From the NCBI GenBank assembly GCA_020723325.1, contig DYJD01000022.1, forward strand, positions 62,001 to 126,000: DNA of 64,000 bases. The letters run 5' to 3'. The position numbers and the translations under genes are program-made. The stretch comes from Desulfosudis oleivorans. Lineage in GTDB: Bacteria > Desulfobacterota > Desulfobacteria > Desulfobacterales > SURF-7. The notes beneath the pieces are model-generated. The model worked only from the letters and a program-made list of their open reading frames with translations. It made no database searches and was not told the DNA's origin. Positions 3 to 28,122 of the stretch are shown here, in pieces. Position 1 is the first letter of the stretch; every line of letters starts with the position of its first letter.

Positions 3-2390
3 CACAGCCTCAGTCATCTCCCGTCTTTTAAATTCAATGAAGAAGGGTATCAGGGCCTCAGCGAAAAAGTGTTTGCCTGCGTGAATGAATACAATGTGGG
101 GGCTGCCACGGTTTTCGCCTTCGGCCGTTCTTTTCTGGCCAATCGTTTCGGTCATTTGACTTCCATGCACCACCATTATTTGCTGGAGGGCTTGCAGGGG
201 GCTTTTGCCGATATCCCGGCCATTCTGGTGGCCGGCGGGCCCTCCCTGGACAAAAACATCCATCTGCTGGCAGAGGCCAAAAACAAAGCCGTGATCATCG
301 CCGTGGACACGGTATTACCGGCCCTGCTGTCCCGGGGAATAGCCCCGGATTTTGTGACTTCCATTGATCCCGAGGAATTCACATTTGAAAAATATGCGGA
401 AGTCATTCCCCAGATTGAGAAAACGGCCCTCATCTGCACGGCCTGGGTAACCCCTAAAGTTCCCAAGACCTTTCCCAACGGCAGGGTGTTTTGGACATTT
501 GCCGGCAACGGTGTGGAATCCTGGATGAATTCATTGATGGGCGGGAGATTGCTGACCACCGGGGCCAAAACCGTGGCCCACCTGAGTTTCACCGCGGCGG
601 TCATTCTCGGTTGTTCACCCATTGTGTTTGTCGGGCAGGACCTGGCTTTTTCCGGGGAAAAGGACCATGCTTCCGAGACCGTGCTTTCCAATCAGGATAT
701 GCTGGACGACTTGTTCAAATCCGGCAAGGATTTGATCTGGGTGGAAGGCAATCTTCAGGAAAAGGTGGCCACCAACCGGTCCTTTTACAGCATGATCAAA
801 TCCTTTGAAAAGATGATCGCCGGAACCCCCGGCCGCTATATCAATGCCACGGAAGGCGGCGCCCGTTTGGCAGGGACGGAGATCCGGACACTGCGTGAAG
901 TCATGGATGCCCATTGCGGTAGGGCCTATGATATTGAAGAACGCATCGATGCTTTTTTCAGCCGGACGCCGCGAATGGCCAGTGAAGTCCTGCTGCGGGA
1001 ATTCCGGGAAGTGAAAAAGCAGATCAGAAACCAGCACGGCTATATCCGCAAATCGGATAAAATCAGCCGGCAATTGCGCAGCCGCATCGCCGCCTTGCGT
1101 AAAAACGGCCTTGCCTATCGCTCCGCATCGGCTTTGCCCAAGCCGGTTCAAAAAATGTTGAATGAGATCGATGGTTTTCATCAGAAAATGGACAAGGCCT
1201 ATGGTCTTTGGCACGTTTTGGAGGAAATCACCCTGGAGGGTCTGCGTCACAGCGAGCGCCTGCGGCATTCCATCGAACTCCTGAAGAACAAGCCCGAGCG
1301 CTATCTGGACTGGATAGAAAAGAATCTGGACCGGTTGGATATCATCAACCGCGTGCGGCGGGAGGTGCTGGGGGAATTTGAAACCCACCTTGAAAGGACC
1401 CTGGATTATCACGCCGAGGAGTCCGAACTGAAACAGCAACTGAGAGTAAAGGAGACCGGAATAGACGAATATCTCAACCTGATGCGATTATATGATGAAT
1501 GCGGCCAAATCACTATGCTGGACCAAGTGCTTGCGGAAGTGGGCCAAGCAAACCAGGATTCTCCGGAAATCCAGTATTATCAGGGGTGCGTGGCTGCCCA
1601 TCGTTTCGAGCAAGCCCGGGCGGAAGTACATTTCAACTCCGCCATCCGGCTAGATCCCGACTTTTCCCAACGGGTCTCGGCCTTTGGCCATCAAATGGCG
1701 GAACAGTATTATCGCTACACCCTCCGGCTGAAAATGGACGGTTACGACATCCGCAAAATGCTTCTGAGAGGTGCGCGTTATTGCAGCACCCACAAGGAAT
1801 TGAATCTGGAAATGAACGAGCTCGTTACCAAGGACCTGACAGCCGTCGGCGCTGCTTTGGAAGCAGGGGAATTTGAAAAAGCAGGTTCCAGGATCGCCCC
1901 CTGGGTCCGGGAGCTGGCTGAAAATCCCAAGCTTTCGGAATGTCTGCGACCTGCCCCCATGGGGGAATTGCTGCGCCATCAAGGACAGTTACTGATTCAA
2001 AAGAGTGAATTCATGGCCGCGGCCGAGTGCTTTCAGCGTGCCATGGAATATCTGCCCCATGCCACCGACCTGTATATCCACCAATGCGATGCGCTGTTTG
2101 CCGGTGAAAGCTTTGATGCCGGTATCGCTTGTTTGCAGAAAGCCGTTGCCAGGGACCGCAATTATGCGATCTACTGGGAAAACATCGGTGATCATCTCCA
2201 AGCTGTACAACAATTCGGCGATGCCATCCTGGCTTATGAACAGTGCTTTATCGTCCTGCCGGATAAGATCGACCTGCTGAAGAAAATCGGGGATTGCTAT
2301 ATGGCCTTGGAGCAGCCGTCAGCCGGCCGGGAGGCGTATATTCAGTATACCCTGAAAAGCGGCCGGGTGCCGGCTTTGAATATCGGATGA
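3..2390 (+). CDS. Maf-type motility accessory factor (DUF115/MptE-like) with C-terminal TPRs; 5' end outside window
   Basis: The frame is open from base 3, so the true start lies before the window; the GTG at 69 is only the first internal start-like codon. The DUF115 core carries PAILVAGGPSLDKN, the nucleotide-sugar binding signature of Maf proteins, about 70-80 residues into the visible part. It is followed by a helical region and TPR-like helices near the C terminus (AECFQRAMEYLPHATDLY). Maf proteins are thought to transfer pseudaminic or legionaminic acid to flagellin in the cytoplasm. Finding it opposite a pseudaminic acid operon fits that role. It is followed after 9 bp by another TPR protein on the same strand. 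The family call is firm; the sugar it uses is inferred from context. Confidence 0.85.
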   Translation, partial: HSLSHLPSFKFNEEGYQGLSEKVFACVNEYNVGAATVFAFGRSFLANRFGHLTSMHHHYLLEGLQGAFADIPAILVAGGPSLDKNIHLLAEAKNKAVIIAVDTVLPALLSRGIAPDFVTSIDPEEFTFEKYAEVIPQIEKTALICTAWVTPKVPKTFPNGRVFWTFAGNGVESWMNSLMGGRLLTTGAKTVAHLSFTAAVILGCSPIVFVGQDLAFSGEKDHASETVLSNQDMLDDLFKSGKDLIWVEGNLQEKVATNRSFYSMIKSFEKMIAGTPGRYINATEGGARLAGTEIRTLREVMDAHCGRAYDIEERIDAFFSRTPRMASEVLLREFREVKKQIRNQHGYIRKSDKISRQLRSRIAALRKNGLAYRSASALPKPVQKMLNEIDGFHQKMDKAYGLWHVLEEITLEGLRHSERLRHSIELLKNKPERYLDWIEKNLDRLDIINRVRREVLGEFETHLERTLDYHAEESELKQQLRVKETGIDEYLNLMRLYDECGQITMLDQVLAEVGQANQDSPEIQYYQGCVAAHRFEQARAEVHFNSAIRLDPDFSQRVSAFGHQMAEQYYRYTLRLKMDGYDIRKMLLRGARYCSTHKELNLEMNELVTKDLTAVGAALEAGEFEKAGSRIAPWVRELAENPKLSECLRPAPMGELLRHQGQLLIQKSEFMAAAECFQRAMEYLPHATDLYIHQCDALFAGESFDAGIACLQKAVARDRNYAIYWENIGDHLQAVQQFGDAILAYEQCFIVLPDKIDLLKKIGDCYMALEQPSAGREAYIQYTLKSGRVPALNIG

Positions 2391-13376: not shown

Positions 13377-14432
13377 TTATTCATGGGCAACATGCTCCCA
13401 GGAAAGGGGCGTTCCTTTTTGAATATCCTGCCGCGCTTTTTTGCCGAGCACGGCTTGGAAATGGCGCGGGTGCAGCCCATCCGCCGGCCGGATGGAGCGA
13501 ACATTTTTATTGGAGAAGGTTTCGCCCTGGCGAATATCCTCTGCCACAAAGAGCGACCTTCTGAATTTCAGGCTTTGCTTCTGCTTGCCCGATGGCTGAT
13601 ACTCGATGGTGCCCAAGGCTTTTTCAGCAATACGGATAGCCTTTACCATTTGGGCGAATTCCTCCGGCTCCATGGAAAAGGAACTGTCCGGGCCGGGGTC
13701 TGATCTGAAAAGGGTAAAATGTTTTTCGATGAGGCACGCGCCGAGAACCACGGCGGCAACTGCCACGGTCCAGCCCATGGAATGATCGGACAGGCCCACC
13801 GGTACAGCAAAGGTTTCCGCCATGTGCGGAATGGTGCGCAGGTGCATTTCCTCAAACGGGGCCGGGTAGGCGCTGGTGCATTTCAGGAGTGCGGTTGCAT
13901 TGCCACCGTGTTGGGAAATGGTGGTAAGGGCCTCATGAATGTCGGCCTCGGTGGCCATGCCCGTTGACAGGATCACGGGCTTGCCGGTTCGGGCGATTTT
14001 CTGGAGCAAGGGCAGATCCACGATTTCAAAGGAGGCGACCTTGAAAGCCGGTACATCTAGGGCGGATAGAAAATCCACGGCCGTGTCGTCAAAGGGGGTG
14101 GAAAAAAAATCCAGGCCGATTCCTTCCGCAATCTTCTTCAATTCGGCTTGCCATTCCCAGGGCATGTAGGCCTCGGCGTAAAGCTCATATAAAGTCCTGC
14201 CCTTCCAGATGGTATCGGTGATTTGAAAATAGGGGTTGCGGCAATTCAGCGTAAGGGTATCGGCTGTATAGGTCTGGACTTTGACCGCATCCGCACCGGC
14301 TGCTTTGGCCGCATGGATGATGCGCACCGCCTGGTCAAAATCCTGACCATGATTGGCGGACATTTCGGCGATGATATAAACCGGCTGGCCCGGACCGATG
14401 GGCCGGCCCTTGATTTCAATGCATGGCTTCAT
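13377..14432 (-). CDS. pseI: pseudaminic acid synthase (NeuB family)
   Basis: 351 residues, the usual length. The NeuB domain is clear: YIIAEMSANHGQDFDQAVRI, FFSTPFDDTAVDFL, PVILSTGMAT, LLKCTSAYPAPFEEM, VGLSDHSMGW, ACLIEKHFTL. A C-terminal SAF (antifreeze-like) domain follows (RRSLFVAEDIRQGETFS). It condenses the 2,4-diacetamido-altrose intermediate with phosphoenolpyruvate to pseudaminic acid. The GLSDHS and NCRNPYFQ-type segments favour PseI over sialic or legionaminic synthases, and the presence of pseB, pseC and pseG around it supports that. It overlaps pseG by 17 bp. Confidence 0.92.
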   Translation of the reverse strand: MKPCIEIKGRPIGPGQPVYIIAEMSANHGQDFDQAVRIIHAAKAAGADAVKVQTYTADTLTLNCRNPYFQITDTIWKGRTLYELYAEAYMPWEWQAELKKIAEGIGLDFFSTPFDDTAVDFLSALDVPAFKVASFEIVDLPLLQKIARTGKPVILSTGMATEADIHEALTTISQHGGNATALLKCTSAYPAPFEEMHLRTIPHMAETFAVPVGLSDHSMGWTVAVAAVVLGACLIEKHFTLFRSDPGPDSSFSMEPEEFAQMVKAIRIAEKALGTIEYQPSGKQKQSLKFRRSLFVAEDIRQGETFSNKNVRSIRPADGLHPRHFQAVLGKKARQDIQKGTPLSWEHVAHE

Positions 14433-15981
14433 AGGTTCCGATTCCTTGTCTGATCATGCTGACCGCCTTCTGGCCGTTGATTTCCAGCAACGGACCGGCC
14501 TCAAAATCCGCGCCGGCAAAGGCTCGGATGGAAGCCGGGTTGGTGGGCTTGATTTGCGCCAGCAGGCGGGTAATACCGGTTCCCAGCAGCAATTCCCGGG
14601 ATGCTTTTGAGATCAAGGCGCTCCCGTATCCTTTGCCGTGCAAGGTCGGATCAAGACACACGGAAACCAAGGCGCTGTCGCCATTGAGATCAAAGCGGAT
14701 CTGTCCGATGGGACCCTTGCCGGTGGTCTCGGCGATGTAATACCGGCAGGCGCCGTTGCCGAGCCGGGCGTTGAACCATTGCACATGTTCATTCCAGGGG
14801 ATGGGCGCTGAATGAAAGGAAGCTGATCGTACCGCCGGCATGTTCACCCATTCCCAGACCATTCTGCAATCCTCTTCCCGGGCCGGTCTTAACCGGATCT
14901 CCTTTTCCAACATGGCGCGCAAGACCCGGCGGCAGCCGTTGCCGTCCACAAGCCGGCGTCCGTTTTGGGCCATCTGACTGCGCTGCGTAAAAGACTGCCC
15001 CAGGCTTTGCACCTTCTCGACCAGCACCGGCAATGAAATATCGGCATGCCAGCCCAGGTTGATGCCGGCCTTGTGCTCATGAAAATGTTCGGCAACCGCG
15101 CGCTGGTTTTCCGCGATGGGGATCAGCAGGCTGGGCAGGGCCATATAAGCCGTTTCCCAAACGGTTGTGCCCGCAGCCATGACGGCCATATCCGCCTCAG
15201 CCATCAGCACGGCCATCTCCCGTACATCTTGAAAAATCCGGACGGTTTCCGGGTGAGCGCGAGCCAGTTCTGCCAATGCTTCCCGGCGCGGATTGGCAGG
15301 GCCGACAACTACCATCAAGCGGAGTTCCGGGAGGTCTGCTGCTGCGAGGGCCGACACGACCCGGCTGGTGATGTCAACCGGATCACTCCCGCCCATGGTC
15401 ACCAGGATGTTGTTGCCCATGGCGGCGACCTCTCGATTCCAATCCATCCATTTCCGGTATTCAGCGCGCAGGAGAACATGGCGGGTACCCATGAGCAGGG
15501 CGGCGTCACTGTTGCGGTTCATATACAAGTCCGGATGGGCGGAAAGGTTCTGGTTCAAAATTATATCAGCGGTATATTCCTTGGCGCGGCCGTCGTCATC
15601 AACCACGAGGGTGTTGAATCCGGCGGAACGGATGTGTTTCTGGAAAAACGCATCAAAGTGATAGCCGTCGATGGCGATCCAGCTTGCATTATATTCTGCG
15701 GCGATGGCGATGGTTTTTTCAGCATCGGCCGGGGTGCCCGGCAATGGGGACAAGATCTGAACGGCCATGCCCTCCTGCAGCAGGCGTTCCCGGATGGCCG
15801 GCGGCGGATCGGATAGCACAAACAGGCATTCCCCTCCATGCCTTTTCCATGCCTGACCAAGGGCCAGGCACCGCAACACATGCCCGGAACCCATGCAGAA
15901 ACTGGCATCCGTCCGGATGATCAAAAACGGGTTGCCGCTTTTGCTTTCACTGGATTTGGGTATAGTGCTTCTGACGGACAT
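14416..15981 (-). CDS. pseG: UDP-sugar hydrolase PseG fused to a GNAT (PseH-like) acetyltransferase
   Basis: Residues about 18-350 match PseG (GT-B fold hydrolase that releases UDP from the diacetamido sugar): FLIIRTDASFCMGSGHVLRC near the start, VVDDDGRAKEY, LVTMGGSDP, and AVMAAGTTVWETAYMALPSLL. Residues about 365-521 are a GNAT domain with LRPAREEDCRMVWEWVN, VCLDPTLHGKGYGSALI (the acetyl-CoA loop) and NPASIRAFAGADFE. In Campylobacter, PseG and the N-acetyltransferase PseH are separate; here one protein would carry both the acetylation and hydrolysis steps. No separate pseH gene was found nearby. The start overlaps the upstream pseF-like gene by 35 bp. Confidence 0.9.
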   Translation of the reverse strand: MSVRSTIPKSSESKSGNPFLIIRTDASFCMGSGHVLRCLALGQAWKRHGGECLFVLSDPPPAIRERLLQEGMAVQILSPLPGTPADAEKTIAIAAEYNASWIAIDGYHFDAFFQKHIRSAGFNTLVVDDDGRAKEYTADIILNQNLSAHPDLYMNRNSDAALLMGTRHVLLRAEYRKWMDWNREVAAMGNNILVTMGGSDPVDITSRVVSALAAADLPELRLMVVVGPANPRREALAELARAHPETVRIFQDVREMAVLMAEADMAVMAAGTTVWETAYMALPSLLIPIAENQRAVAEHFHEHKAGINLGWHADISLPVLVEKVQSLGQSFTQRSQMAQNGRRLVDGNGCRRVLRAMLEKEIRLRPAREEDCRMVWEWVNMPAVRSASFHSAPIPWNEHVQWFNARLGNGACRYYIAETTGKGPIGQIRFDLNGDSALVSVCLDPTLHGKGYGSALISKASRELLLGTGITRLLAQIKPTNPASIRAFAGADFEAGPLLEINGQKAVSMIRQGIGTYEAMH

Positions 15982-16696
15982 TTTGGTTGATTTCCCGTAG
16001 TTCCGGGTTGGTTTCCAATAAAGCCATGATATCGCTCAGATAAAAATCATGGGTGCCGCGGTACAAGGCCTGATACACGGTCTGAATCAATTGAAAATCC
16101 TCGGGAGTGTCCAGGGTCAGGCGATAATCTGAAAAATCCGTGGCGCATTGATAATGGAAAACCCTGTTGGTTTTTTTTTCATAAATGTACGGGGTGACAT
16201 GCTCGCGCTGGTATGCTTCTACCGCATGGGCATAGGCATCGGCAAGGCCGGCCATGGAAAAAACTTCCGTATCCGTTCCCGGAGGATAGGTCCGTTTGGT
16301 GTTGAGCGGGCCGGCATTACTGACGATATCATAGGTGTGGCTTTGATAGAAGCGAATGATGTCATCGCCGATGATAGGATCAAAGAGGGGACAGTCCGAG
16401 GTGATGCGCACCACTGTTTCGGCGTGGTTTTCCACAGCCGCATGATAGTAGCGGGACAGGACATCGGCCTCACTGCCCCTGAATACCTGGGTCCGGTATT
16501 GCCGGGCCAGGTCAGCGATGGGATCATCCATGGGGCCGTCGGTGGTGGCCACCACGATGGTCTGGATGGTTTCACAGCGGCCCACGCGCTCGATCACGTG
16601 GCCCAGCACGGGCTTGCCCAGAAGATCCTTCATGACCTTTCCGGGCAGGCGCGTTGATCCCATGCGGGCTTGAATGATGGCGACGACGTTGTTCAT
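15947..16696 (-). CDS. pseF: cytidylyltransferase, probable CMP-pseudaminic acid synthetase (SpsF/PseF family)
   Basis: The N terminus VVAIIQARMGSTRLPGKVM is the CTP-transferase signature of the SpsF family; further motifs are VRITSDCPLFDPIIGDD and YRLTLDTPEDFQLIQ. It would activate pseudaminic acid as CMP-Pse for the Maf transferase. The SpsF type differs from the NeuA-like PseF of Campylobacter, but it occupies the pseF place in many pse clusters, so the role is assigned by context. It lies 6 bp after the HisF-like gene and overlaps pseG. Confidence 0.8.
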   Translation of the reverse strand: MNNVVAIIQARMGSTRLPGKVMKDLLGKPVLGHVIERVGRCETIQTIVVATTDGPMDDPIADLARQYRTQVFRGSEADVLSRYYHAAVENHAETVVRITSDCPLFDPIIGDDIIRFYQSHTYDIVSNAGPLNTKRTYPPGTDTEVFSMAGLADAYAHAVEAYQREHVTPYIYEKKTNRVFHYQCATDFSDYRLTLDTPEDFQLIQTVYQALYRGTHDFYLSDIMALLETNPELREINQNVRQKHYTQIQ

Positions 16697-16702
16697 GGTC
16701 TC

Positions 16703-17476
16703 CTAGGCCGGGATCATGTTGGCATTGCGCACCATGATCCCCTTTGATTGCAAATACTGTTTGGCCCCAAGGGGCGTTTGTTCCGTAAAATGGAACATGC
16801 TGGCCGCGGCCAGGGCCGAAGCGCCGCCGGCATGGACCGCCTGATAAAAGTCCTCGAAACATCCCGCGCCGCCCGAGGCGATCACCGGAATGGAAACCGC
16901 TGCCGATACGCAACGGATTAAGTTGAGGTCATAGCCCTGCATGGCCCCGTCCTGCTGAATGGAGGTGATCAGGATCTCGCCGGCCCCGCGTTTTTCCATT
17001 TCTTTGGCCTGATGGGTAACTTCCTTGCCGGTGGGCCGGGTTCCGCAGGCGGAGTAGCAGTAATAACGGCCGTTTTCCGCCTTGGCATCCAGGCTCGCCA
17101 CAATGCACTGGGAGCCGAAATGATGAGCGGCCTGATCAACCAGGTCCGGGGTTTCAAAAGCCGCGGTGTTGATGGCGACCTTGTCGGCACCGGAGCGCAG
17201 CAGGTTTTTGATGTCGGACAAGGAAGTAATTCCGCCGCCCACGGTGAGCGGTACAAAACATTCCTGGGAAAATTCGGCCACGGATTCAAAATCCGGCGGG
17301 CGGTTTTCCATTCCGGCGGTGATATCCAGTATGATCAGCTCATCCACCTCGCGCAGGTTATAGACCTTGACCGCCGGCAGGACCGTCCCGACCCGGCGCC
17401 AACTGTCAAAAGCAACGCCTTTCACCAGGCCCGGGCCTTTCCAGAGCAAGGTGGGTATGATGCGGACCTTCAACAT
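16703..17476 (-). CDS. HisF-like amidation partner (WbuZ type)
   Basis: A (beta/alpha)8 barrel related to HisF, starting MLKVRIIPTLLWKGPGLVKG. In true HisF this region reads IIPCLDV.DG, and the first catalytic aspartate (Asp11) is replaced here by leucine. The second catalytic aspartate position looks kept (VASLDAKAEN). The barrel phosphate motifs VGGGI and ASGGAG are present. With HisH and the N-acetyl sugar amidotransferase as neighbours, it fits the glycosyl-amidation WbuZ/HisF2 group. In that group the barrel is thought to pass ammonia from the glutaminase to the amidotransferase rather than make histidine intermediates. It lies 27 bp after hisH. Confidence 0.85.
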   Translation of the reverse strand: MLKVRIIPTLLWKGPGLVKGVAFDSWRRVGTVLPAVKVYNLREVDELIILDITAGMENRPPDFESVAEFSQECFVPLTVGGGITSLSDIKNLLRSGADKVAINTAAFETPDLVDQAAHHFGSQCIVASLDAKAENGRYYCYSACGTRPTGKEVTHQAKEMEKRGAGEILITSIQQDGAMQGYDLNLIRCVSAAVSIPVIASGGAGCFEDFYQAVHAGGASALAAASMFHFTEQTPLGAKQYLQSKGIMVRNANMIPA

Positions 17477-17503
17477 GACGGCTTGGGATCCTCCCTGACC
17501 CGG

Positions 17504-18124
17504 CTAATGGATTGCCAAAAAATTACGGATGACCCGGAAGCCGGATTTCTGGCTTTTTTCCGGATGAAATTGAACCCCGAACACGTTTTGCTGCATCACC
17601 GCTGAGATGAAATTTCCACAATAGGGGGTGGTGGACATGATGCATTCCCGGTTTTTGGTGATGAAATGATAGCTGTGGACAAAATAGAAGTCCGTACCAT
17701 CAGCGACATCGGCAAACAGCGGCGCATCTTCCACCGGGTAGACTTCATTCCAGCCCACATGGGGAATGCGTGTTTCCGGGCTTTCCGGTTCCAGTTTTTT
17801 AACCTGGCCGGGAATCAGCCCCAAACCGCGGGTTTCACCGCCTTCGTACCCGACTTCTCCCAGAAGCTGCATGCCCAGGCAGATGCCCAGGAGGGGTATT
17901 TGCTCCTGAAGCACTTCCCGTAAGATGGCTTGGGTCCAGCCGCTTTGATTCAATTGCTCCATGCCGTCCCGGAAGGAGCCGACCCCCGGCAGGACAAGGT
18001 GGGAGGCGGTTTTCACATCACGAGGATCGTCGGATATGAAAGCGGCGGCGCCGCATTCCTCAAAGGCGCGCTTAACCGACTGCAAGTTGCCGAGGCCGTA
18101 ATCGATGATCAAGGTTGCAGACAT
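17504..18124 (-). CDS. hisH: HisH-like glutamine amidotransferase subunit
   Basis: Class I glutaminase with the nucleophile elbow LLGICLGMQLL and the His/Glu pair in FGVQFHPEKSQKSG, so it should release ammonia from glutamine. The ATG at 18124 is chosen because GAGGAG sits seven bases upstream; a longer frame to 18145 adds only basic residues. It starts inside the 3' end of the amidotransferase gene (53-bp overlap). Its partner here is the HisF-like protein and the sugar amidotransferase, so a role in acetamidino sugar synthesis is more likely than histidine synthesis; no other his genes are in the window. Confidence 0.85.
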   Translation of the reverse strand: MSATLIIDYGLGNLQSVKRAFEECGAAAFISDDPRDVKTASHLVLPGVGSFRDGMEQLNQSGWTQAILREVLQEQIPLLGICLGMQLLGEVGYEGGETRGLGLIPGQVKKLEPESPETRIPHVGWNEVYPVEDAPLFADVADGTDFYFVHSYHFITKNRECIMSTTPYCGNFISAVMQQNVFGVQFHPEKSQKSGFRVIRNFLAIH

Positions 18125-19289
18125 CCGCCTTCTCCTCGCTGGCATTGTCGTAATTGATTTTGGTCAAATTGCCGTGGCGGTCCTTGATCAGATTGCCGCG
18201 GGCATCTGTGCGGAAAAGTTTTTTATTCGTAAAGCGGTCGCAGATGCGGATAAAGTCGTCAATGGAAAGATCCAGGGGGTTAAGGATGTTTTCCAGGGAT
18301 TCCCCCAGGTAGGTCCAGGGGAATTTGCCGTCGTGTTCCTTGACCAGGGTCAGGCCGTCTTCGCGGGTGATACGTTCCCGGCGAATGTGCAAGCAGGCGA
18401 TGTCCGTGGCCCGGCCGAATCCGAATTTCAGGAATTTGAAATAGTCGTGGATGCCGGTCTGGTGGTTGTCCAGGTTTTCATAGCTCACCACCGAGCCTTC
18501 CACGGTCCGGTTGAAGGTGGTCAGGCCATGGGCCTGGGACAACAGGGCGTTGGCATAGCCGTCCCAGGGGATATAATAACCCAGGAAAATGCCGGAGACT
18601 CCCGCCGCTTTCAATTCCGCATCCGTGGGGTAGGTGAAGGGAATCAAATGCCTTTTTTCAATGCCTTCCTGGCCGATGAGATCCGTCACCCGCAGGCCCA
18701 AAAGCCCGCCGAACTCCTCCAGCCAGCGCCGGGTCAGAATATTGTCCTTGCTGGCGGCGGCCGGCCCGCCGTATTCGTTTTGGGGGTTTTCACCCCAGAC
18801 GATCAAGGGCACGCGGTATTGCACCGCGGTCCTTACCGGCACGGTAAAAATGCTCACATGTTCCGGCCAGGAAATATCGCCCACCTGGGTAAGGCCGACG
18901 CGGTTCAGTTTTTTGCGAACCACCCGGTTGGTGGTCATTTCAACGTAATCAACCCCCAGGCGTTTAATGTTTTCAATATTTTTGCGGCCGATGTCCGACA
19001 GATGGCAGGTGGTGGCCGTGACGCACAGGGGATTCATGTCCAGTTGCAGCATGCGGATGACCTGGTAGGTGCTGTCCTTGCCGCCGCTTACCGGGATGAT
19101 GCAATCCCAGTTTGTGCCGTCCTTGGAACGATAGCGTTCGAGAATTTCCATGAGTTCGTTTTTGCGGGCGGCCCAGTCCACTTCCTTGCGCTTTTCAAAA
19201 TTGCGACAGGCGCTGCACACTCCTTCTGTATCGATAAAAAGGTCGGGCTTGGTTTCCGGCATCACGCATTTTTTGCAATAGCGAATCAT
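18072..19289 (-). CDS. N-acetyl sugar amidotransferase (PseA/WbpG/LegG-type)
   Basis: The N terminus RYCKKCVMPETKPDL plus VCSACRNFEKR gives two CxxC pairs for a zinc site. The PP-loop ATP-binding motif is IIPVSGGKDSTYQV. Length (405 residues) matches the family. These enzymes use ATP and ammonia to turn an N-acetyl group into an acetamidino group, with HisH and HisF-like proteins supplying ammonia; all three are adjacent here. With the pse genes around it, the product is probably an acetamidino form of pseudaminic acid, as PseA makes in Campylobacter. The last 15 or so residues overlap hisH and look like an extension. Confidence 0.88.
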   Translation of the reverse strand: MIRYCKKCVMPETKPDLFIDTEGVCSACRNFEKRKEVDWAARKNELMEILERYRSKDGTNWDCIIPVSGGKDSTYQVIRMLQLDMNPLCVTATTCHLSDIGRKNIENIKRLGVDYVEMTTNRVVRKKLNRVGLTQVGDISWPEHVSIFTVPVRTAVQYRVPLIVWGENPQNEYGGPAAASKDNILTRRWLEEFGGLLGLRVTDLIGQEGIEKRHLIPFTYPTDAELKAAGVSGIFLGYYIPWDGYANALLSQAHGLTTFNRTVEGSVVSYENLDNHQTGIHDYFKFLKFGFGRATDIACLHIRRERITREDGLTLVKEHDGKFPWTYLGESLENILNPLDLSIDDFIRICDRFTNKKLFRTDARGNLIKDRHGNLTKINYDNASEEKADVCNLDHRLRPRQLAVG

Positions 19290-19324
19290 TGTTTGCTCTC
19301 CTGGTGTGAATTACTCCCCATTGG

Positions 19325-20746
19325 TTATATGGCTGCCGCCGCTGCTTCAGGCCGATGGGCCGAGTCCTTGGAAGTGACAAAGGTGAAAGTTTTCACCAGT
19401 TGATCTTCCCGCAATCCCAGGCCGATTTTTTGATTGATGCGTTTCAAATGACGGGCCACCTCCTGCTGAAACAAGTCATCGGGGATATCGGTCAGGTTGA
19501 AACGCAAATCCTGGCGATCGCCCATGCGCATTAAATAATCTTCAAAATCGTCGGCAAAACCCTTGGCTTTGGCAATGTCGAACATGGGAGTGCCGGGTTG
19601 GGGCAGCAGGTAGCCGGTGCTGGGGTAGATGTCGAGATCATGGCAGACGTCAAAGGTTTGCTTCAAGGTCGCAAGGGTTTCTTCCGGGTAGCCCAGGACA
19701 ATGCTGGTGAAAGAGGTGATGCCGGCCAGGTCCAGGGCGATTTTCTGGCGCTTGAAATCCTCCACTTTCAGCTTTTTCTGCATGCTTTTTAAAATGGCCG
19801 GGCTGCCGGACTCCAAGGAATAGCCAAAACTCAGGCAACCGGAGTTCTTGACCGCCTGCAGCAAATCCAAGTCTTTTTCGGTGAACAGATCCGAACGGAT
19901 GTCGGCGTTCCAGAAGAAACGCAGCCCGCTGTTAGCAACGCCGCTCACGAATTCCTGAACCTGCTTTTTATTGGAAAAGGTCAGTTCGTCGAAGAAATTG
20001 ACGTAATTGATCCCATATTTGTCCTTCAGCAGGGCGATTTCATTCAGGATGGAAGCCACCGAACGCCGGCGGTAACCGGTATATTGAAAAACATGATAGC
20101 AGAAGGTGCAGCGGAATGGACAGCCCCTGGCCGTGTTGACCACAAAGGCCCTGATTTCCTCTTTGGGAATCGGGTAGGGTTCGGGTACGTCCTGGAAGGA
20201 TTTGCTTAAATAAAGTTCCATATCGAACAAATCCCATTTGGGCGGCTCCAGGATGCTGATGTTCCGGATGGGTTCCGCCTGGCCGGTGTCCACGATTTGT
20301 TTTTTTTCCTTGAATACGATGCCTTTGACTTCCCTAAAGGAACGGCCTTTACAAAAGGCATCCAGTAATTCCAGCATGACTTCCTCGCCCTCGCCTTTTA
20401 CAGCGATATCCACCGCCGTATTCTGAATCAGGAATTCGGGAATGGAGGAGGCCACCGAGTTGCCGGCGATGATCAGGGCCCGGGGATTGGTTTCCCGGGC
20501 AATGGCCGTGATTTTCTTGACATATTTGTAGCCGGAAACCAGGGTGCCGGTGGCGATGACGTCATAGGGTTTTTGGAGTAGAAGTTTGCGCAGTTGTTCG
20601 TCCGTATGGCGGTGGGCTTCGATGTCGAAGATATCAAAACTATACCCGGCTTTTTGCATGGCCGAAGCCACATAGGCGATGCCGGTGGGGAAATAGGCCT
20701 TGTTCATGTAGGGCCGCAAACAGGGTATGATGATGGCGATATTCAT
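19325..20746 (-). CDS. cobalamin-binding-type radical SAM enzyme
   Basis: The N-terminal ~150 residues form a B12-binding-like Rossmann domain (MNIAIIIPCLRPYMNKAYFP, ALIIAGNSVASSIPEFL, DIAVKGEGEEVMLELLDAF). The radical SAM core carries the cluster motif RGCPFRCTFC and GYSLESGSPAILKSM. The DxHxxG-type B12 contact is not obvious, so cobalamin binding may be weak or absent. Such enzymes methylate unreactive carbons or rearrange sugars. It lies between the amidotransferase and the Pse-associated methylase, so a modification of the nonulosonic acid is plausible. Exact reaction unknown. Confidence 0.75.
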   Translation of the reverse strand: MNIAIIIPCLRPYMNKAYFPTGIAYVASAMQKAGYSFDIFDIEAHRHTDEQLRKLLLQKPYDVIATGTLVSGYKYVKKITAIARETNPRALIIAGNSVASSIPEFLIQNTAVDIAVKGEGEEVMLELLDAFCKGRSFREVKGIVFKEKKQIVDTGQAEPIRNISILEPPKWDLFDMELYLSKSFQDVPEPYPIPKEEIRAFVVNTARGCPFRCTFCYHVFQYTGYRRRSVASILNEIALLKDKYGINYVNFFDELTFSNKKQVQEFVSGVANSGLRFFWNADIRSDLFTEKDLDLLQAVKNSGCLSFGYSLESGSPAILKSMQKKLKVEDFKRQKIALDLAGITSFTSIVLGYPEETLATLKQTFDVCHDLDIYPSTGYLLPQPGTPMFDIAKAKGFADDFEDYLMRMGDRQDLRFNLTDIPDDLFQQEVARHLKRINQKIGLGLREDQLVKTFTFVTSKDSAHRPEAAAAAI

Positions 20747-20783
20747 GGCTTGTCCTTTCTTAACAGCATGGGCTTAGGGCTTT

Positions 20784-21410
20784 TCAGGACGCTTTTCTGA
20801 AAATCCAGAAGGTCACATCATCCCAGCCCCCGGCGCTTTTCGATAGAAAACCCTGCTCCACAAGGGTCAGTTCCGGAAACAGTTCCAGGTAGAGCCTGCC
20901 GTAATCTTGCTTGAACAGGGCGCCGCGCTGGTTGCGGTAAGGAATTTCCGTAAGCTCTTCCGCATGATATTCGGCGCAGAGCACATAATGCTTGGCACAA
21001 CGCACAATCTCGGCCATGACCAGCGGCAGGGATGGTTGGGGTTGATGAATCAGAACCCCGGCGGTGAAAACCAGGTCGAACCAGCGGTCCCGGAAAGGCA
21101 ATTCCCGGGCCGGCGACCAAAGCACATTGATGCTGGGGAGTTTCTGTTTCAGGAGGGTGAGGGCATTTTCATTGATATCCACCCCATAGATGTTTTTGGC
21201 CGGCAGGCATTGGGCCAGCCAGTGCAGGTTCGCGCCGATATTGCAGCCGACCTCCAGCACCGAAGCAAACGGGTAGTCGTTGTGCAACTGTTTCCAAAAC
21301 TGCTCCCGGCCGTTGCCGGCATCCTGATTGCGCTCGACATATTCATTGCCGAATTCGCCGCCCCAAAGTTTTTCCAGGCGGGTGATCTCGGAAAAGGCAG
21401 GTTCGGTCAT
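20784..21410 (-). CDS. pseudaminic acid biosynthesis-associated methylase
   Basis: 208 residues. The start TRLEKLWGGEFGNEYVERN and the SAM motif SVLEVGCNIGANLHWL are characteristic of the methylase family that travels with pse genes. Later segments are DLVFTAGVLIHQP and CAKHYVLCAEYHAEELTEI. Predicted to methylate pseudaminic acid or its precursor, although no reaction has been read from sequence. It follows pseC by 9 bp and precedes the radical SAM gene. Confidence 0.85.
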   Translation of the reverse strand: MTEPAFSEITRLEKLWGGEFGNEYVERNQDAGNGREQFWKQLHNDYPFASVLEVGCNIGANLHWLAQCLPAKNIYGVDINENALTLLKQKLPSINVLWSPARELPFRDRWFDLVFTAGVLIHQPQPSLPLVMAEIVRCAKHYVLCAEYHAEELTEIPYRNQRGALFKQDYGRLYLELFPELTLVEQGFLSKSAGGWDDVTFWIFRKAS

Positions 21411-21419
21411 GGCGGTCTC

Positions 21420-22655
21420 CTATAAATGCGAAGGTATTGTAAGGGATTGATCCTTGGCAGGGGCCGGGAAAACCCGGGCCATTGCCGTGAGCTCATTCAG
21501 TGTGGCGATGACATGGATGGTGTCCCGCGCCCCCATGGCCGCATGCATGGGCAGGGAGAGGATGGATTGGTAGGCTTCCTCTGCCAGGGGGCACAGGCCG
21601 GGGGCGGTGCCAAAGGTCTTGCGGTAATAGGGGTGCAGGTGCACCGGGATGTAATGCACATTGGCACCGATGCCCTGCCCGCGCAGCAAGGTGAACAGTT
21701 CCGCGCGGTCCAGGCCGCTGCTTTGGAAATCGATTCTAACCACATAGAGATGATAGGCGTGCCGGACATGGGGCTGTACCAAAAGGGCCTGAATAGCGGG
21801 ATTGTCTGCAAAACCTAGCCCATAAGCAGCGGCGATGGTCTGGCGGATCTGTAGAAATTCAGGCAACCTTTTGAGCTGACTGATGCCCAGGGCGCACTGG
21901 ATGTCCGTCAATCGGTAGTTGTAACCCAGATCGGTCATCTCATAATACCAGGTTCCGGATTGGGCCCTTTGGGTGTGATCCGTGTTAATGCCGTGATTGC
22001 GAAAGCGCCGCAGCTTTTCCGCCAGGTCTGGGTGATCGGTAACGATCATCCCGCCTTCACCGGTGGTGATATGTTTCACCGGGTGGAAGCTGAAAACGGT
22101 GGCATCGGCCAAGGTGCCCACTTTCCTGCCTTTGTATTCAGCCCCGAGGGCATGGCAGGCATCGGCGATCAGAAAGAGGCCGTGCTGGCGGGCCAAGGTT
22201 TGGAGTGCATCGTAGTCGCAGGGCTGACCGGCATAATCCACTGCCAGGATGGCTTTGGTGCGCGGGCTGATCTGTTCCGCCACTTTTTCCGGATCCATCA
22301 GAAGGGTGGCAGGATCGATATCCACGAACACCGGTACCCCCTTTTGATAAACCACAGCATTGGCGCTGGCAGCGAAAGTCATGGGCGATAGAATGACTTC
22401 ATCCCCCGGACCGATGCCCATGGCGTGCATGACGGCATGCAAGGCGGCCGTGCCGTTGGCAACCGCCACGGCATGGCCGGCGCCGGTGAAGTCGGCAACG
22501 GCTTCTTCAAAAAAGCGGATCCTTGGGCCGGTGGTCAGATAGTCCGATTGCAGAACATCCAGAACCGCCTGGATGTCGCTTTCATCAAGCTGTTGCCGGC
22601 CATAGGGAATAAAATGCTCCGGCGGTGTGTTTTGTGCTCTTACTTTCATGGTCAT
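21420..22655 (-). CDS. pseC: UDP-4-amino-4,6-dideoxy-N-acetyl-beta-L-altrosamine transaminase
   Basis: DegT/DnrJ/EryC1 aminotransferase of 411 residues beginning near IPYGRQQLDESDIQAVLDVL. PLP contacts are seen in VANGTAALHAVMHA and LIADACHALGAEYKG, with the Schiff-base lysine in FSFHPVKHITTGEGGM. The phrases GANVHYIPVHLHPYYRK and SILSLPMHAAM are typical of PseC. It converts the 4-keto product of PseB to the 4-amino sugar. Either of two methionines (22655 or 22649) could start it. It lies 56 bp downstream of the pseB fusion gene. Confidence 0.92.
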   Translation of the reverse strand: MTMKVRAQNTPPEHFIPYGRQQLDESDIQAVLDVLQSDYLTTGPRIRFFEEAVADFTGAGHAVAVANGTAALHAVMHAMGIGPGDEVILSPMTFAASANAVVYQKGVPVFVDIDPATLLMDPEKVAEQISPRTKAILAVDYAGQPCDYDALQTLARQHGLFLIADACHALGAEYKGRKVGTLADATVFSFHPVKHITTGEGGMIVTDHPDLAEKLRRFRNHGINTDHTQRAQSGTWYYEMTDLGYNYRLTDIQCALGISQLKRLPEFLQIRQTIAAAYGLGFADNPAIQALLVQPHVRHAYHLYVVRIDFQSSGLDRAELFTLLRGQGIGANVHYIPVHLHPYYRKTFGTAPGLCPLAEEAYQSILSLPMHAAMGARDTIHVIATLNELTAMARVFPAPAKDQSLTIPSHL

Positions 22656-22711: not shown

Positions 22712-23923
22712 TTAATTGAGGCCGATCAGTTGCTTCAATTCAGGCACCGTCAACCATTCACTGTTGCTGTCGCTGGTATATATGAATCCTTCCGGCATTT
22801 TTTGGGCGTTTTTATAATTTTTTCTTTCCCACCAGGAGAAATTGGGCAGAATCACGTACATGCCGTCATAACTGATGGTATTGCGGCCGTCCTCCTCGGT
22901 GATGAGGGCTTCATGGAGTTTCTCGCCGGGCCGGATACCGATATATTCGATCTTGCATTCCGGCGCCACGGCCTTGGCCAGGTCGGTGATCTTCATGCTG
23001 GGGATTTTGGGAACAAAGATTTCGCCCCCCTGCATGTGGCATAAGCCTTTTAAAACCAGGTCCACGGCCTGATCCAGGGAGATCCAGAAACGGGTCATGC
23101 GCTTGTCCGTGATGGTGATCCTGCCGTTTTGCTTCTGGCTGTTGAACAAGGGGATGACGCTGCCGCGGCTGCCGATGACGTTGCCGTACCGCACGCAACT
23201 GAAGCGGGTGCCTTTTTCGCCGGCATAGGAATTGCCGTTGACAAAAATTTTATCCGAGCAGAGTTTGGTGGCGCCGTAAAGATTGACCGGGTTGACGGCC
23301 TTGTCCGTGCTGAGGGCGATCACTTTTTTCACACCGGCGTCAATGGCGGCGTCGATGATGTTCTGGGCCCCGTGGATATTGGTTTTGATGGCTTCAAAGG
23401 GATTGTATTCACAGGAGGGGACCTGCTTGAGGGCCGCGGCGTGGATGACGATATCCACGCCGGCCATGGCTCTGCGCAGGCGGTCCACATCCCGGACATC
23501 GCCGATGAAATAACGCAGATTTTCTTCGCCGAACTGCTGGCGCATCTCATGCTGTTTCAATTCATCCCGGCTGTAAACCCGGATCACCTTGGGTTGGTAT
23601 TTTCCTGTCATGATCCGGCAGAAATGCTTGCCAAAGGAGCCGGTGCCGCCGGTTACCAGAATGGTTTGCTCGGACCAGTCGATTTTGCCCACATCGGCGT
23701 TGCCGTTGCGCAACAAGGTTTTGACCTCGGCGATACTTTTCTTGTGAATATGGAGCATTTCCTTGATTCTGAAAAGCACCGTGAGATCCTCATTGGAATA
23801 GCGCCGCTGGCCGCCGTTGGTTTTGGCCGGGCTGATGAAATCAACGAATTCCTTTTGCCAATAACGAATTGTGGAGACAGGGACTTCAATTTTAGTGCCG
23901 ATTTCTTGGATACGATACATCAT
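22712..23923 (-). CDS. pseB: MerR-type DNA-binding domain fused to UDP-GlcNAc 4,6-dehydratase (PseB)
   Basis: Residues 1 to about 72 are a MerR winged helix: YRIQEIGTKIEVPVSTIRYW, then GGQRRYSNEDLTVLFRIKEM. After a short linker, residues about 85-403 are a full PseB/FlaA1 SDR enzyme: NAD loop LVTGGTGSFGK, catalytic STDKAVNPVNLYGATK (Asp207, Lys208, Tyr216), and RPGEKLHEALITEEDGR. The enzyme makes the first pathway intermediate by inverting C5 of UDP-GlcNAc. The ATG at 23923 is preceded by AAGGTG at good spacing; a GTG at 23932 is also in frame. PseB proteins normally lack any DNA-binding domain. As the first gene of the operon, the fusion suggests direct feedback control (see findings). Confidence 0.92.
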   Translation of the reverse strand: MMYRIQEIGTKIEVPVSTIRYWQKEFVDFISPAKTNGGQRRYSNEDLTVLFRIKEMLHIHKKSIAEVKTLLRNGNADVGKIDWSEQTILVTGGTGSFGKHFCRIMTGKYQPKVIRVYSRDELKQHEMRQQFGEENLRYFIGDVRDVDRLRRAMAGVDIVIHAAALKQVPSCEYNPFEAIKTNIHGAQNIIDAAIDAGVKKVIALSTDKAVNPVNLYGATKLCSDKIFVNGNSYAGEKGTRFSCVRYGNVIGSRGSVIPLFNSQKQNGRITITDKRMTRFWISLDQAVDLVLKGLCHMQGGEIFVPKIPSMKITDLAKAVAPECKIEYIGIRPGEKLHEALITEEDGRNTISYDGMYVILPNFSWWERKNYKNAQKMPEGFIYTSDSNSEWLTVPELKQLIGLN

Positions 23924-24014
23924 GATCTTCACCTTTTGCCATGGTGTTGTTCATTTTAGGAGAGAACTCCTTTCAGGATGGAATTGTGTTCGCTTGCCCC
24001 GGGCTTTTGTTATT

Positions 24015-24041
24015 CTATCGGCCATACACAGGTAAAAGTTA
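24015..24041 (-). promoter_or_regulatory. sigma-28 (FliA)-like promoter for the pse operon
   Basis: On the minus strand TAACTTTT, 11 bases, GCCGATAG. The enterobacterial consensus is TAAAGTTT-N11-GCCGATAA, so 6/8 and 7/8 positions match with exact spacing. The predicted transcript would start about 85 bases before the pseB ATG. Seen by eye; transcription is not shown. Confidence 0.6.
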
Positions 24042-24053
24042 AATTCAACTTTT
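24034..24053. promoter_or_regulatory. 20-bp dyad overlapping the sigma-28 -35 box (possible MerR operator)
   Basis: Perfect 7-bp inverted arms AAAAGTT and AACTTTT separated by AAATTC. The size matches MerR-family operators. It covers the predicted -35 element and lies just downstream of the sigma-54-like start point, so a bound regulator could affect both promoters. A second, weaker dyad (AGGAG-AGAA-CTCCT) is at 23958-23971 in the leader. Confidence 0.45.
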
Positions 24054-24068
24054 TGATTAACTTCTCTC

Positions 24069-24084
24069 TGCAAATCATATGCCA
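24069..24084 (-). promoter_or_regulatory. sigma-54-like promoter for the pse operon
   Basis: Minus strand reads TGGCATATGATTTGCA. The -24 TGGCA and -12 TTGCA elements match the RpoN consensus, with the required ten bases between GG and GC. It lies upstream of the sigma-28-like promoter for the same operon. Confidence 0.55.
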
Positions 24085-24091
24085 TGAAAAA

Positions 24092-24128
24092 CAATTACGA
24101 ATTATGAATTACAAATTATGAATTGTGG
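24092..24128 (+). repeat. 37-bp AT-rich repeat arm (solo)
   Basis: One of seven 37-bp arms in the window built of AATTAYGA-like 8-bp units, starting CAATTA and ending GTGG. This copy is in the 250-bp gap between pseB and the SDR gene and has no visible partner arm. Confidence 0.85.
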
Positions 24129-25684: not shown

Positions 25685-25747
25685 TGGAAAAGATTATCTC
25701 GGAAAGGTGATAGAAATTTTTTCAAGGGATGTCAAATAAAATTTTAT

Positions 25748-25775
25748 TAAAGTTTATTATTGTCCCGGTCGATAA
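25748..25775 (+). promoter_or_regulatory. sigma-28 (FliA)-like promoter
   Basis: TAAAGTTT (8/8 to consensus) and GTCGATAA (7/8) separated by 12 bases, one more than ideal. A start about seven bases after the -10 would leave a short leader with GGAGG at 25785-25789 ahead of the ATG at 25798. Confidence 0.6.
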
Positions 25776-26749: not shown

Positions 26750-27145
26750 ATGAAGGTTACCGGTAGTTATAATGCGGCTAATATCCAGCAGCCACCTGCA
26801 TCCGGAACGCGGACTCCGCGGGCCGTGTATGAGACGGTTTTGAATACCGCGGACCGCGTTTCGGATACGGGCGAGGCAAAAGAGGATACGGCGGCTTATT
26901 CGGTGCGAATCTCCGATCAAGCGCGGGCCAAAGCTGAATTTGAAAGCGGTCAGCGAAGGGAAGGCGCTGCTTTTGAGAGCCGGGCCCGGCGGGATAGGAG
27001 CGAATTTGAGCGCCGACAGCAACAGGAAAAGGCGGCCTTTGAACGTCAGGAAGCAGAGAAAAGCGCGGAGTTCAGACGAAAACAACAGGCTGAGGCAAGA
27101 GTATTTAAAAGCAATTATGAATTACGAATTACGAATTATGAATAG
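26750..27145 (+). CDS. small coiled-coil protein whose C terminus is encoded by a repeat arm
   Basis: 131 residues, not recognised. The ATG at 26750 has AGGTGA five bases before it. The N-terminal half contains YSVRISDQARAKAEFE, similar in style to the motif in the preceding small protein. The second half is a charged Glu/Arg/Gln helix (RRDRSEFERRQQQEKAAFER), probably a coiled coil. The last ten residues (NYELRITNYE) and the stop codon come from the 37-bp repeat arm at 27112-27148, so the original C terminus was probably replaced by insertion of the repeat. Confidence 0.6.
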   Translation: MKVTGSYNAANIQQPPASGTRTPRAVYETVLNTADRVSDTGEAKEDTAAYSVRISDQARAKAEFESGQRREGAAFESRARRDRSEFERRQQQEKAAFERQEAEKSAEFRRKQQAEARVFKSNYELRITNYE

Positions 27146-27272
27146 TGGTTCGGACGTTTCGGGTCTTTGTTTTGCCGGTTTTTTTGCCATAGGTCGTACA
27201 GATTAGGATGATATTTTAATAAAATTGAGAAAATACCTTGATTCATAATTCATAATTCGTAATTCATAATTG
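27112..27272. mobile_element. MITE-like element, copy 1 (161 bp)
   Basis: Two inverted 37-bp arms, 27112-27148 and 27236-27272, enclose 87 bp. Arms are made of AATTAYGA-like units and begin/end with CAATTA...GTGG / CC..GATT...AATTG. The inner right side (ATAAAATTGA then AAATACC) is also present in copy 2, which supports a real element. The left arm ends the preceding gene; the right arm lies 16 bp before the flagellin start codon. No coding capacity. Confidence 0.6.
27161..27176 (+). promoter_or_regulatory. weak sigma-54-like site before flagellin
   Basis: GG, ten bases, GC with TTGC at -12, but the -24 half is poor (GGGTC instead of TGGCA). It lies inside MITE-like copy 1. No better flagellar promoter was seen between 27146 and 27288. 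Confidence 0.25.
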
Positions 27273-27288
27273 TATTTCAGGGGGTTTT

Positions 27289-28122
27289 ATGCGGATCAAT
27301 ACAAACATAAGTGGAATGTTCGCCGTCAAATCGTTACAGGAGGGGCAGCAAGCCCTGCAGGCCAGTCTGGACAAGATCTCCAGCGGGCGGCGGATCAACA
27401 AGGCTGCGGATGACGCCGCGGGCATGACCATTGCCGATACCCTGGCCAGCCAGGCCCGGGGCATGGGACAGGCCATCCGCAATGCCAACGATGCCATTGC
27501 CATGGCCCAGGTGGCGGACGGTGCTTTGGAAAATTCCTCCCAGATCATTCAGACCATTCGGGAAAAGGCCTTGCAGGCTGCCAACGACAGCCAGAGCTAT
27601 GAATCCCGCCAGGCGATTCAGGCGGATATCGGCAAGCTGCTGTCCCAGTTGGATAATGTCGCACAGACGACCAGTTACAACGGCCAGCGGCTCTTGACCG
27701 GCGATTTTACCGACAAGAGTTTTCAGACCGGGGCCAATGCCGGTGAAACCATTTCCCTTTCCATCGGGTCGGCGGCTTCGAACCAACTCGGCAGCAATGA
27801 AACCGGCAGATTGAGTGACATCGATGTGACCAGTACTGAGGGCGCCCAGGCTGCCGTTCAGATTGCCGACCAGGCCCTGGCCGACTTGAACAGCAACCGC
27901 TCCCAGATCGGTTCCGTGCAAAATCAATTGACTTCCACGATTCAGAATCTGTCCAGCTCCCAGATCAATATATTCGCATCGGAATCCACCATCCGGGATA
28001 CGGATATGGCCGAGGAATCCATGGTCTTGTCACGGCTGAAATTACTCAATCAGGCCCGGGCCTATGCCTTGGCCCAGACAAAGGATCGAGGAGAGAGTAT
28101 CTTGGGATTGCTGAAAGGGTAG
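27289..28122 (+). CDS. fliC: flagellin
   Basis: 277 residues, about the shortest workable flagellin. The N-terminal D0/D1 helices begin MRINTNISGMFAVKSLQEGQ and contain ISSGRRINKAADDAAGM. The C-terminal D1/D0 segment has IRDTDMAEESMVLSRLKLLN. Between them only about 60-70 residues (ANAGETISLSIGSAASNQL to TEGAQAAVQI) remain, so the variable surface domain is almost absent. AGGGGG precedes the ATG by four bases. It would be exported by the flagellar apparatus and is the obvious acceptor for the pseudaminic acid pathway; Ser/Thr residues in the central segment are candidate sites. Confidence 0.95.
   Translation: MRINTNISGMFAVKSLQEGQQALQASLDKISSGRRINKAADDAAGMTIADTLASQARGMGQAIRNANDAIAMAQVADGALENSSQIIQTIREKALQAANDSQSYESRQAIQADIGKLLSQLDNVAQTTSYNGQRLLTGDFTDKSFQTGANAGETISLSIGSAASNQLGSNETGRLSDIDVTSTEGAQAAVQIADQALADLNSNRSQIGSVQNQLTSTIQNLSSSQINIFASESTIRDTDMAEESMVLSRLKLLNQARAYALAQTKDRGESILGLLKG

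Follow-up and report, generated by a model that had tools for sequence, protein, structure and literature searches.

How the glycosylation of flagellin is matched to flagellar assembly and to the supply of sugar is, to our knowledge, poorly understood, the Listeria protein GmaR being the example that we know of. A gene of Desulfosudis oleivorans brings the question down to a single protein: why should the enzyme that takes the first step towards pseudaminic acid carry a DNA-binding domain at its head? The gene lies in a stretch of 64,000 nucleotides, the whole of which was analysed and which we call the window, where it is the first gene of a pse (pseudaminic-acid) operon. A first-step enzyme with a DNA-binding head, facing an operator predicted to the base, makes this question testable in a small purified system; and if the head does bind and repress there, the enzyme would help control its own production.

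A MerR head joined to PseB

The fusion gene (22712..23923, minus strand) is a single open frame of 403 amino acids that runs from 23923 to 22712, intact and without frameshift. It begins with an ATG at 23923; a GTG at 23932, in frame, is a possible alternative start. Residues 3–73 (23705..23917, minus) form a MerR winged helix-turn-helix, recognized by Pfam MerR_1 (PF13411; 59.7 bits, the cut-off being 21.6, and E 3e-16), by alignment and in the structural model. Then comes a linker, residues 74–83 (23675..23704, minus), in the translation of which there is no methionine, and finally the inverting UDP-GlcNAc 4,6-dehydratase PseB, residues 84–399 (22727..23674, minus), which matches the NCBIfam equivalog TIGR03589 with 521 bits against a cut-off of 408 (E 7.5e-157). 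The catalytic motif of PseB is described as [ST]DKxnYx3K (PMC8987622). Residues 205–220 fit it, with S205-T206-D207-K208 followed by Y216-x3-K220, the catalytic D207, K208, Y216 and K220 being placed at 23264..23305 (minus) from the translation of the frame and the alignment. Judged by its sequence, the PseB part is a complete enzyme with its catalytic motif intact. The closest solved structure is Helicobacter pylori FlaA1 (2gn4), 55% identical to the enzyme part, and among the 60 listed of 79 matching solved sequences the best stretch always lies in that part.

The AlphaFold model, made from an alignment of 58 selected sequences, has a mean pLDDT of 88.4 and a pTM of 0.78. It displays a MerR fold over residues 3–72 (helices 5–12 and 16–25, a strand at 40–42 and a helix at 64–72), a segment of low confidence in the linker region (73–79, pLDDT below 50), then the PseB fold. 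The C-terminal dimer helix and the effector domain of classical MerR proteins are absent from the model. The original prediction, that a MerR head is joined to a complete PseB, is thus borne out by PF13411, by TIGR03589 and by the uninterrupted frame; the domain search that it named as a check finds a clear MerR similarity.

That prediction also called for a search of PseB homologues for an N-terminal MerR domain, and the fusion does recur, in 25 distinct loci from several families. Among the best 80 loci of a contig scan, which is all that the survey covers outside the phylum, so that rarer fusions elsewhere could escape it, 12 carry the head in frame and 68 are without it. The 12 are labelled Deltaproteobacteria, Desulfobulbaceae, Desulfobacterales, Desulfosudis and, once, Proteobacteria; the 68 include members of many other phyla. 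Full-length fusions were found in 12 of the 291 genomes of an order sample, together with one truncated by a contig end (G236), and in 7 of the 395 genomes of a phylum sample (G580, G307, G344, G355, G000, G067 and G140), the last three of which belong to both counts. An alignment of 13 fusions, 53–78% identical to the protein of the window, has STIRYW...GGQRRY as the conserved core of the heads, with core residues invariant or nearly so. All 12 fused records among the best 80 loci come from metagenome-assembled genomes (MAG), as might be expected if an assembly artefact or a misassigned start codon had created the fusion; the identical joint, however, is shared by 25 distinct loci that come from different assemblies and belong to several families, and this conservation rules the artefact out, its probability being negligible.

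In a PseB tree, two headless proteins, L100 (genome G182) and L019 (G489), are nested within the fused group, and so they are in a careful tree restricted to 51 of 133 rows, where distant non-fused rows were taken as the outgroup. On these sequences, a single gain of the head would imply at least two losses without loss of pseB. The fusion at L032 may be a separate event.

The leading position of the gene in its operon, another element of the original prediction, is upheld by what lies downstream. Next to it, after a gap of 60 nt, is the PseC aminotransferase gene (21420..22655, minus; TIGR03588, 473 bits against 423.5), and the remainder of the pse operon (13377..21410, minus), assigned with NCBIfam and Pfam, encodes a Pse-associated methylase, a B12 radical SAM protein, an N-acetyl sugar amidotransferase, HisH, a HisF/WbuZ-like protein, a PseF-like cytidylyltransferase, PseG-PseH and PseI. 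The methylase, the amidotransferase, HisH, PseG and PseI are above the NCBIfam cut-off (TIGR03587, TIGR03573, TIGR01855, TIGR03590 and TIGR03586); the HisF/WbuZ-like and PseF-like proteins fall under it, and the radical SAM and GNAT parts were assigned by Pfam. With the proteins of the window as queries, a PseC homologue was found within 1 kb downstream of the fusion in 24 of 25 entries (24 distinct loci, as L009 and L235 are the same one); at L011 it is 5.7 kb away. Further pse genes follow the fusion in many loci.

The promoter element before the fusion gene

According to the original prediction, the protein may act on the region at 23.92–24.09 kb. This proposal now has strong comparative support, with a predicted sigma54-like promoter and three candidate binding units located there, at 24035–24084. 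The promoter, TGGCAT-N5-TTGC (24070..24084, minus), was found by a pattern scan of the window with what we take to be the sigma54 consensus: the pattern has 18 matches with at most one mismatch against 16.3 expected, and this one alone is without mismatch. A similar site precedes 21 of the 25 fusion genes. Comparative reading of upstream regions led to the predicted operator (24035..24063, minus), made of units AAGTT (24059–24063), AAGTT (24047–24051) and AACTT (24036–24040) in steps of 11–12 nt and comprising the near-palindrome AAAGTTGAATTTAACTTT at 24035–24052. This region is the only place in the 7.2-Mb genome that matches AAAGTTNNATTNAASTTT without mismatch. Further on is a conserved GCCGATAG (24015..24022, minus), conjecturally the −10 element of a FliA (sigma28) promoter. 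Upstream regions of the fusions share this order: sigma54-like TGGCAY-N5-TTGC, then AAGTT/AACTT units, then CCGATA. Sigma54 transcripts start about 12 nt past the GC of the site. If this rule holds, the units of the window would cover roughly −5 to +23 of the predicted start.

Scanned for the element with up to three mismatches, the window yields two places, the fusion promoter and 25738–25755 (two mismatches, within a frame), 1.75 being expected by chance, and none before the flagellin gene at 27289. The promoter alignment (A2) retains 18 of the 25 fused upstream regions; L009 and L010 were omitted as they have no clear element near the gene, L016, L017 and L032 as they have no regular block, and L096 and L099 as near copies. 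Two smaller alignments contain ten elements (A3) and a selection of ten fused and ten stand-alone ones (A4). At L119, L120, L090 and L091 a repetitive GTTCACCG/AACGG-rich stretch, noticed by eye, separates the fusion promoter from the start codon.

Do the repeats belong to pseB, to the promoter, or to the head? After removal of duplicates, the comparison drew on loci whose upstream regions were usable, 25 distinct fused ones, some of them close mutual relatives, and 109 distinct non-fused ones; loci with less than 150 nt upstream and copies identical over the last 120 nt were omitted. A palindrome score of at least 13 out of 15 was reached by 17 of the 25 fused regions and by none of the 109 non-fused ones (shuffles: 1 of 125 and 2 of 545, respectively); the pattern was learned from the fused genes, and the fairer tests are the non-fused set, the genome scans and the headless relatives. 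When a sigma54-like site is required as well, an AAGTT/AACTT pair 9–13 nt apart occurs in 14 of 21 fused regions, in none of 19 non-fused ones and in 0.3% of shuffles, with the proviso that the searchable stretch is merely 33–55 nt in 7 of the 19 against 1 of the 21, and that chance may account for a few of the 19, from other phyla. Among the headless relatives, L100 has a good sigma54-like site and L019 a looser one, both without the repeats, and the neighbouring headless loci L101, L103 and L124 likewise retain the site and lack the repeats. Since these relatives keep the promoter but not the repeats, the repeats go with the head. The rule has exceptions: 8 of the 25 fused regions score below 13, and the strict spaced pair is missing in 7 of the 21 (L011, L012, L013, L014, L098, L099 and L118), where the units are mostly degenerate or rearranged.

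Stand-alone relatives and candidate targets

The same kind of element is also found before MerR genes that are not fused to anything (L219, L222–L224, L226–L229, L231, L233, L241, L242, L244, L246, L289 and L292), with a sigma54-like promoter and AAGTT repeats, in islands of the glycosylation type. Their frames extend over 113–164 amino acids from stop to stop (82 at L219). The pattern TxR[FY]WE...P.RT.GGQRRY is common to stand-alone and fused heads, with variants such as SGQRRY at L312 and, often in fused heads, WQ instead of WE. In a tree of 77 columns, fused and stand-alone heads come together (support 100/99), apart from 13 of 14 ordinary MerR proteins of the same order, the fourteenth being a very long branch. 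The stand-alone proteins possess a further tail, absent from the fusion, which we read as a helix, and the steps between their repeats are often 6 nt, as against 11–12 nt. By sequence, these genes look like an undescribed group of regulators.

A test from the protein side used a profile (A7) built from ten stand-alone proteins and run over the 291 genomes; the reading of upstream regions left out two contig-edge pieces in G278 and a fragment in G177. Of seven newly examined stand-alone genes, two have promoter and repeats (L289, L292), two a partial form (L290, L312), and three no element within 450 nt (L293, L298, L311). Among 23 ordinary MerR genes, a sigma54-like match was found in two, a repeat match in two, and both together in none. 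At L219 (960–1655, in G177), the element is followed by the short stand-alone frame, then by a second, partial MerR piece, a doubling that suggests decay or recombination; at L228, a gene for a protein of the 23S rRNA-intervening-sequence type (12018–12398) lies between element and MerR gene.

Genome scans indicate how closely the element is tied to these genes. In eight of ten chosen fusion genomes, AAAGTTNNATTNAASTTT without mismatch marks the fusion promoter; the ten together have just one more such place. This place (G205, C1:308512) is a repeat of the whole promoter block (L218, about 9478–9554), some 42 kb from the first, and it precedes genes for a CmcI-like methyltransferase, a radical SAM protein and an MptE/Maf-type protein. 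Allowing one mismatch gives 43 places on both strands of the ten genomes against 48 for the reversed control, an absence of excess that makes weak sites indistinguishable from chance. In G269, an element near the end of contig C230 may be that of the fusion gene located on C113.

A model of the promoter block (R2), based on sequence alone and made from 18 fused rows, was then run with Infernal under strict filters, because of which weak sites are lost. Over the 291 genomes it finds 32 places at E ≤ 5e-4. At 22 of these a MerR gene follows on the same strand, at most 1.1 kb away: it is fused at 12, of which 9 are rows of the model, and stand-alone at 10, none of which is in the model; in G278, another gene intervenes before the stand-alone MerR. 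Of the other ten, two are at a contig edge and eight have no adjoining MerR. Four of these eight belong to fusion genomes (G205, G248 twice, G236), and the three that were read (L218, L232 and L234, leaving out G248 C259:258) each lead into an operon with an MptE/Maf-type gene. The rest are one in G278, in an island shared with a stand-alone MerR, and three without explanation, in G234, G049 and G072. Every one of the 13 matches at E about 1e-12 or better comes from a fusion-bearing genome, which was to be expected with most of them being rows of the model. Over the 395 phylum genomes, R2 finds 17 places. A MerR gene follows 11 of them, fused in 6 cases (5 being model rows) and stand-alone in 5, with four genomes in common with the order run; one leads to a GT9-like gene in G580, a fusion genome (L249), and at five the stretch read has no MerR gene. 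In genomes without a listed fusion, the order run has three MerR-less places and the phylum run five. Two loci of G359 (L243 and L250) have a clear promoter with repeats and no MerR in the stretch read, one of them preceding a TPR protein gene; they are possibly targets in trans, or else the MerR gene is farther off. For the stand-alone group, which sits in glycosylation islands of this phylum, the promoter element offers a means to find further targets.

A putative enzyme-regulator and its alternatives

What might the head be doing? As the presence of the repeats follows that of the head, whether fused or stand-alone, rather than that of pseB or the promoter, the head very probably binds the AAGTT/AACTT units of its own promoter. 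Their position at the predicted start site makes repression the most likely outcome: bound over the start, the protein would hinder the promoter, hence the pse operon, and, in some relatives, operons with Maf-type glycosyltransferases before which this element also stands. The PseB part would supply the oligomer, aligning several heads on the repeats in replacement of the tail of the stand-alone proteins. This view rests on the missing dimer helix and on the enzyme's own kin, FlaA1, CapE and WbjB being described as hexamers; in WbjB, NADP+ bridges adjacent dimers and has been proposed as an assembly switch (PMC5774825). Taken as a whole, this picture of a two-domain enzyme-regulator, drawn from comparisons of sequences, seems to us probable. 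A further step, for which the original prediction named UDP-GlcNAc, NADP or product as the signal, is speculative: occupancy by UDP-GlcNAc or NADP(H), or assembly of the hexamer, would alter DNA binding and make the protein a trigger enzyme. We would consider possible, while leaning to doubt, the extension in which a PseB hexamer set by NADP(H) and UDP-GlcNAc acts as a ruler, holding the heads in register with the 11–12-nt repeats, so that the supply of sugar nucleotide would gate the pse operon and, in relatives, the Maf operons.

Other readings have to be weighed against this one. The protein could bind the repeats and yet activate or reshape a promoter of the sigma54 or sigma28 kind, in the manner of classical MerR proteins, which are activators at spacers of 19–20 bp (PMC5859096); the units, however, sit at the predicted sigma54 start and not between promoter elements, and the modelled head has no long dimer helix, which leaves activation unlikely. 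It is quite improbable that the repeats are part of a FliA (sigma28) promoter, or the site of another flagellar regulator, and that the MerR genes merely happen to reside in such operons. Unit 3 followed, after 11 nt, by GCCGATAG does agree with the FliA consensus, which we take to be of the E. coli type in all our scans, with two mismatches (1.1 matches with up to three mismatches being expected in the window); both the fused and the stand-alone elements are often followed by CCGATA, and in G307 the pattern is found 82 times against 26 in the reversed control. Yet the same counts are 83 against 100 in G000, 51/56 in G205, 48/53 in G154, 43/57 in G067 and 55/41 in G580, the mismatch-free repeat pattern is nearly confined to the fusion promoter in the ten genomes, and spaced units are absent from non-fused pseB promoters with a sigma54-like site. 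A FliA promoter of the E. coli type was rejected as a full account, the pattern not being enriched in G000. Five loci around mismatch-free FliA matches were read by eye: L251 (G067) precedes a CheD-like chemotaxis gene, and the other four look non-flagellar.

Finally, the head might be a relic, or a module for localization or assembly with no regulatory role. The headless L100 and L019, nested in the fused group and keeping pseB after what, under a single gain, would be a loss of the head, are in keeping with this; against it stand the near-invariant STIRYW/GGQRRY core of the 13 fusions and the retention of the repeats together with the head, so that we hold a relic to be very improbable.

The fusion recalls several known systems. 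PutA, BirA and NadR are trigger enzymes; without proline, PutA acts as the repressor of its own operon (PMC8249747). The fusion resembles them in uniting an enzyme and a DNA-binding domain in one chain, and a candidate site, strongly supported by comparison, lies at its own promoter; unlike them, it has a MerR head, a sugar-nucleotide dehydratase and a flagellin-glycosylation operon. Listeria GmaR combines a glycosyltransferase function with control of flagellar genes, as an anti-repressor acting on the repressor MogR (PMC3150276). Here too, one protein would couple glycosylation with gene control, by a route other than the anti-repression of GmaR. We know of no MerR domain in GmaR. As to the head, BldC is a protein of 68 residues with a MerR-like head that binds spaced direct repeats of the unit AATTxxxx(C) (PMC5859096). 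The fusion likewise has a head without the long dimer helix and spaced repeats upstream; it differs from BldC in its enzyme, in a third unit that is either direct or inverted (inverted in several cases), and in an oligomerization that may come from PseB. Full-text searches, in a collection without most subscription journals, listed no paper that deals with a MerR-PseB fusion or with MerR-type regulation of glycosylation islands. What would be new is a MerR-fused PseB as a variant of the trigger-enzyme type, with a predicted operator; the stand-alone MerR group, the conservation of the repeats and the candidate targets of Maf type among relatives go beyond the original prediction.

Some features of the window bear on the sugar and its destination. 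The divergent neighbour of the operon is a flagellin gene (27289..28122, plus; Flagellin_N/C), the product of which is the likely recipient of the sugar. Farther away, an MptE-like protein (PF01973) with TPRs (69..2390, plus) was assigned by Pfam and is a Maf-related candidate, without a listed match to Maf_flag10_N. The B12-binding radical SAM protein and the Pse-associated methylase (19325–21410, minus), both also present at L008, L148 and L149, may act to give a modified pseudaminic acid. A single frame (14416–15981, minus) joins PseG, with TIGR03590 over the cut-off, to a PseH-like GNAT acetyltransferase domain. Lastly, a dispersed AT-rich repeat, in variants of aattcataattcgtaattcat, was noticed by eye in intergenic positions at about 24092–24124, 27113–27145 and 27241–27275.
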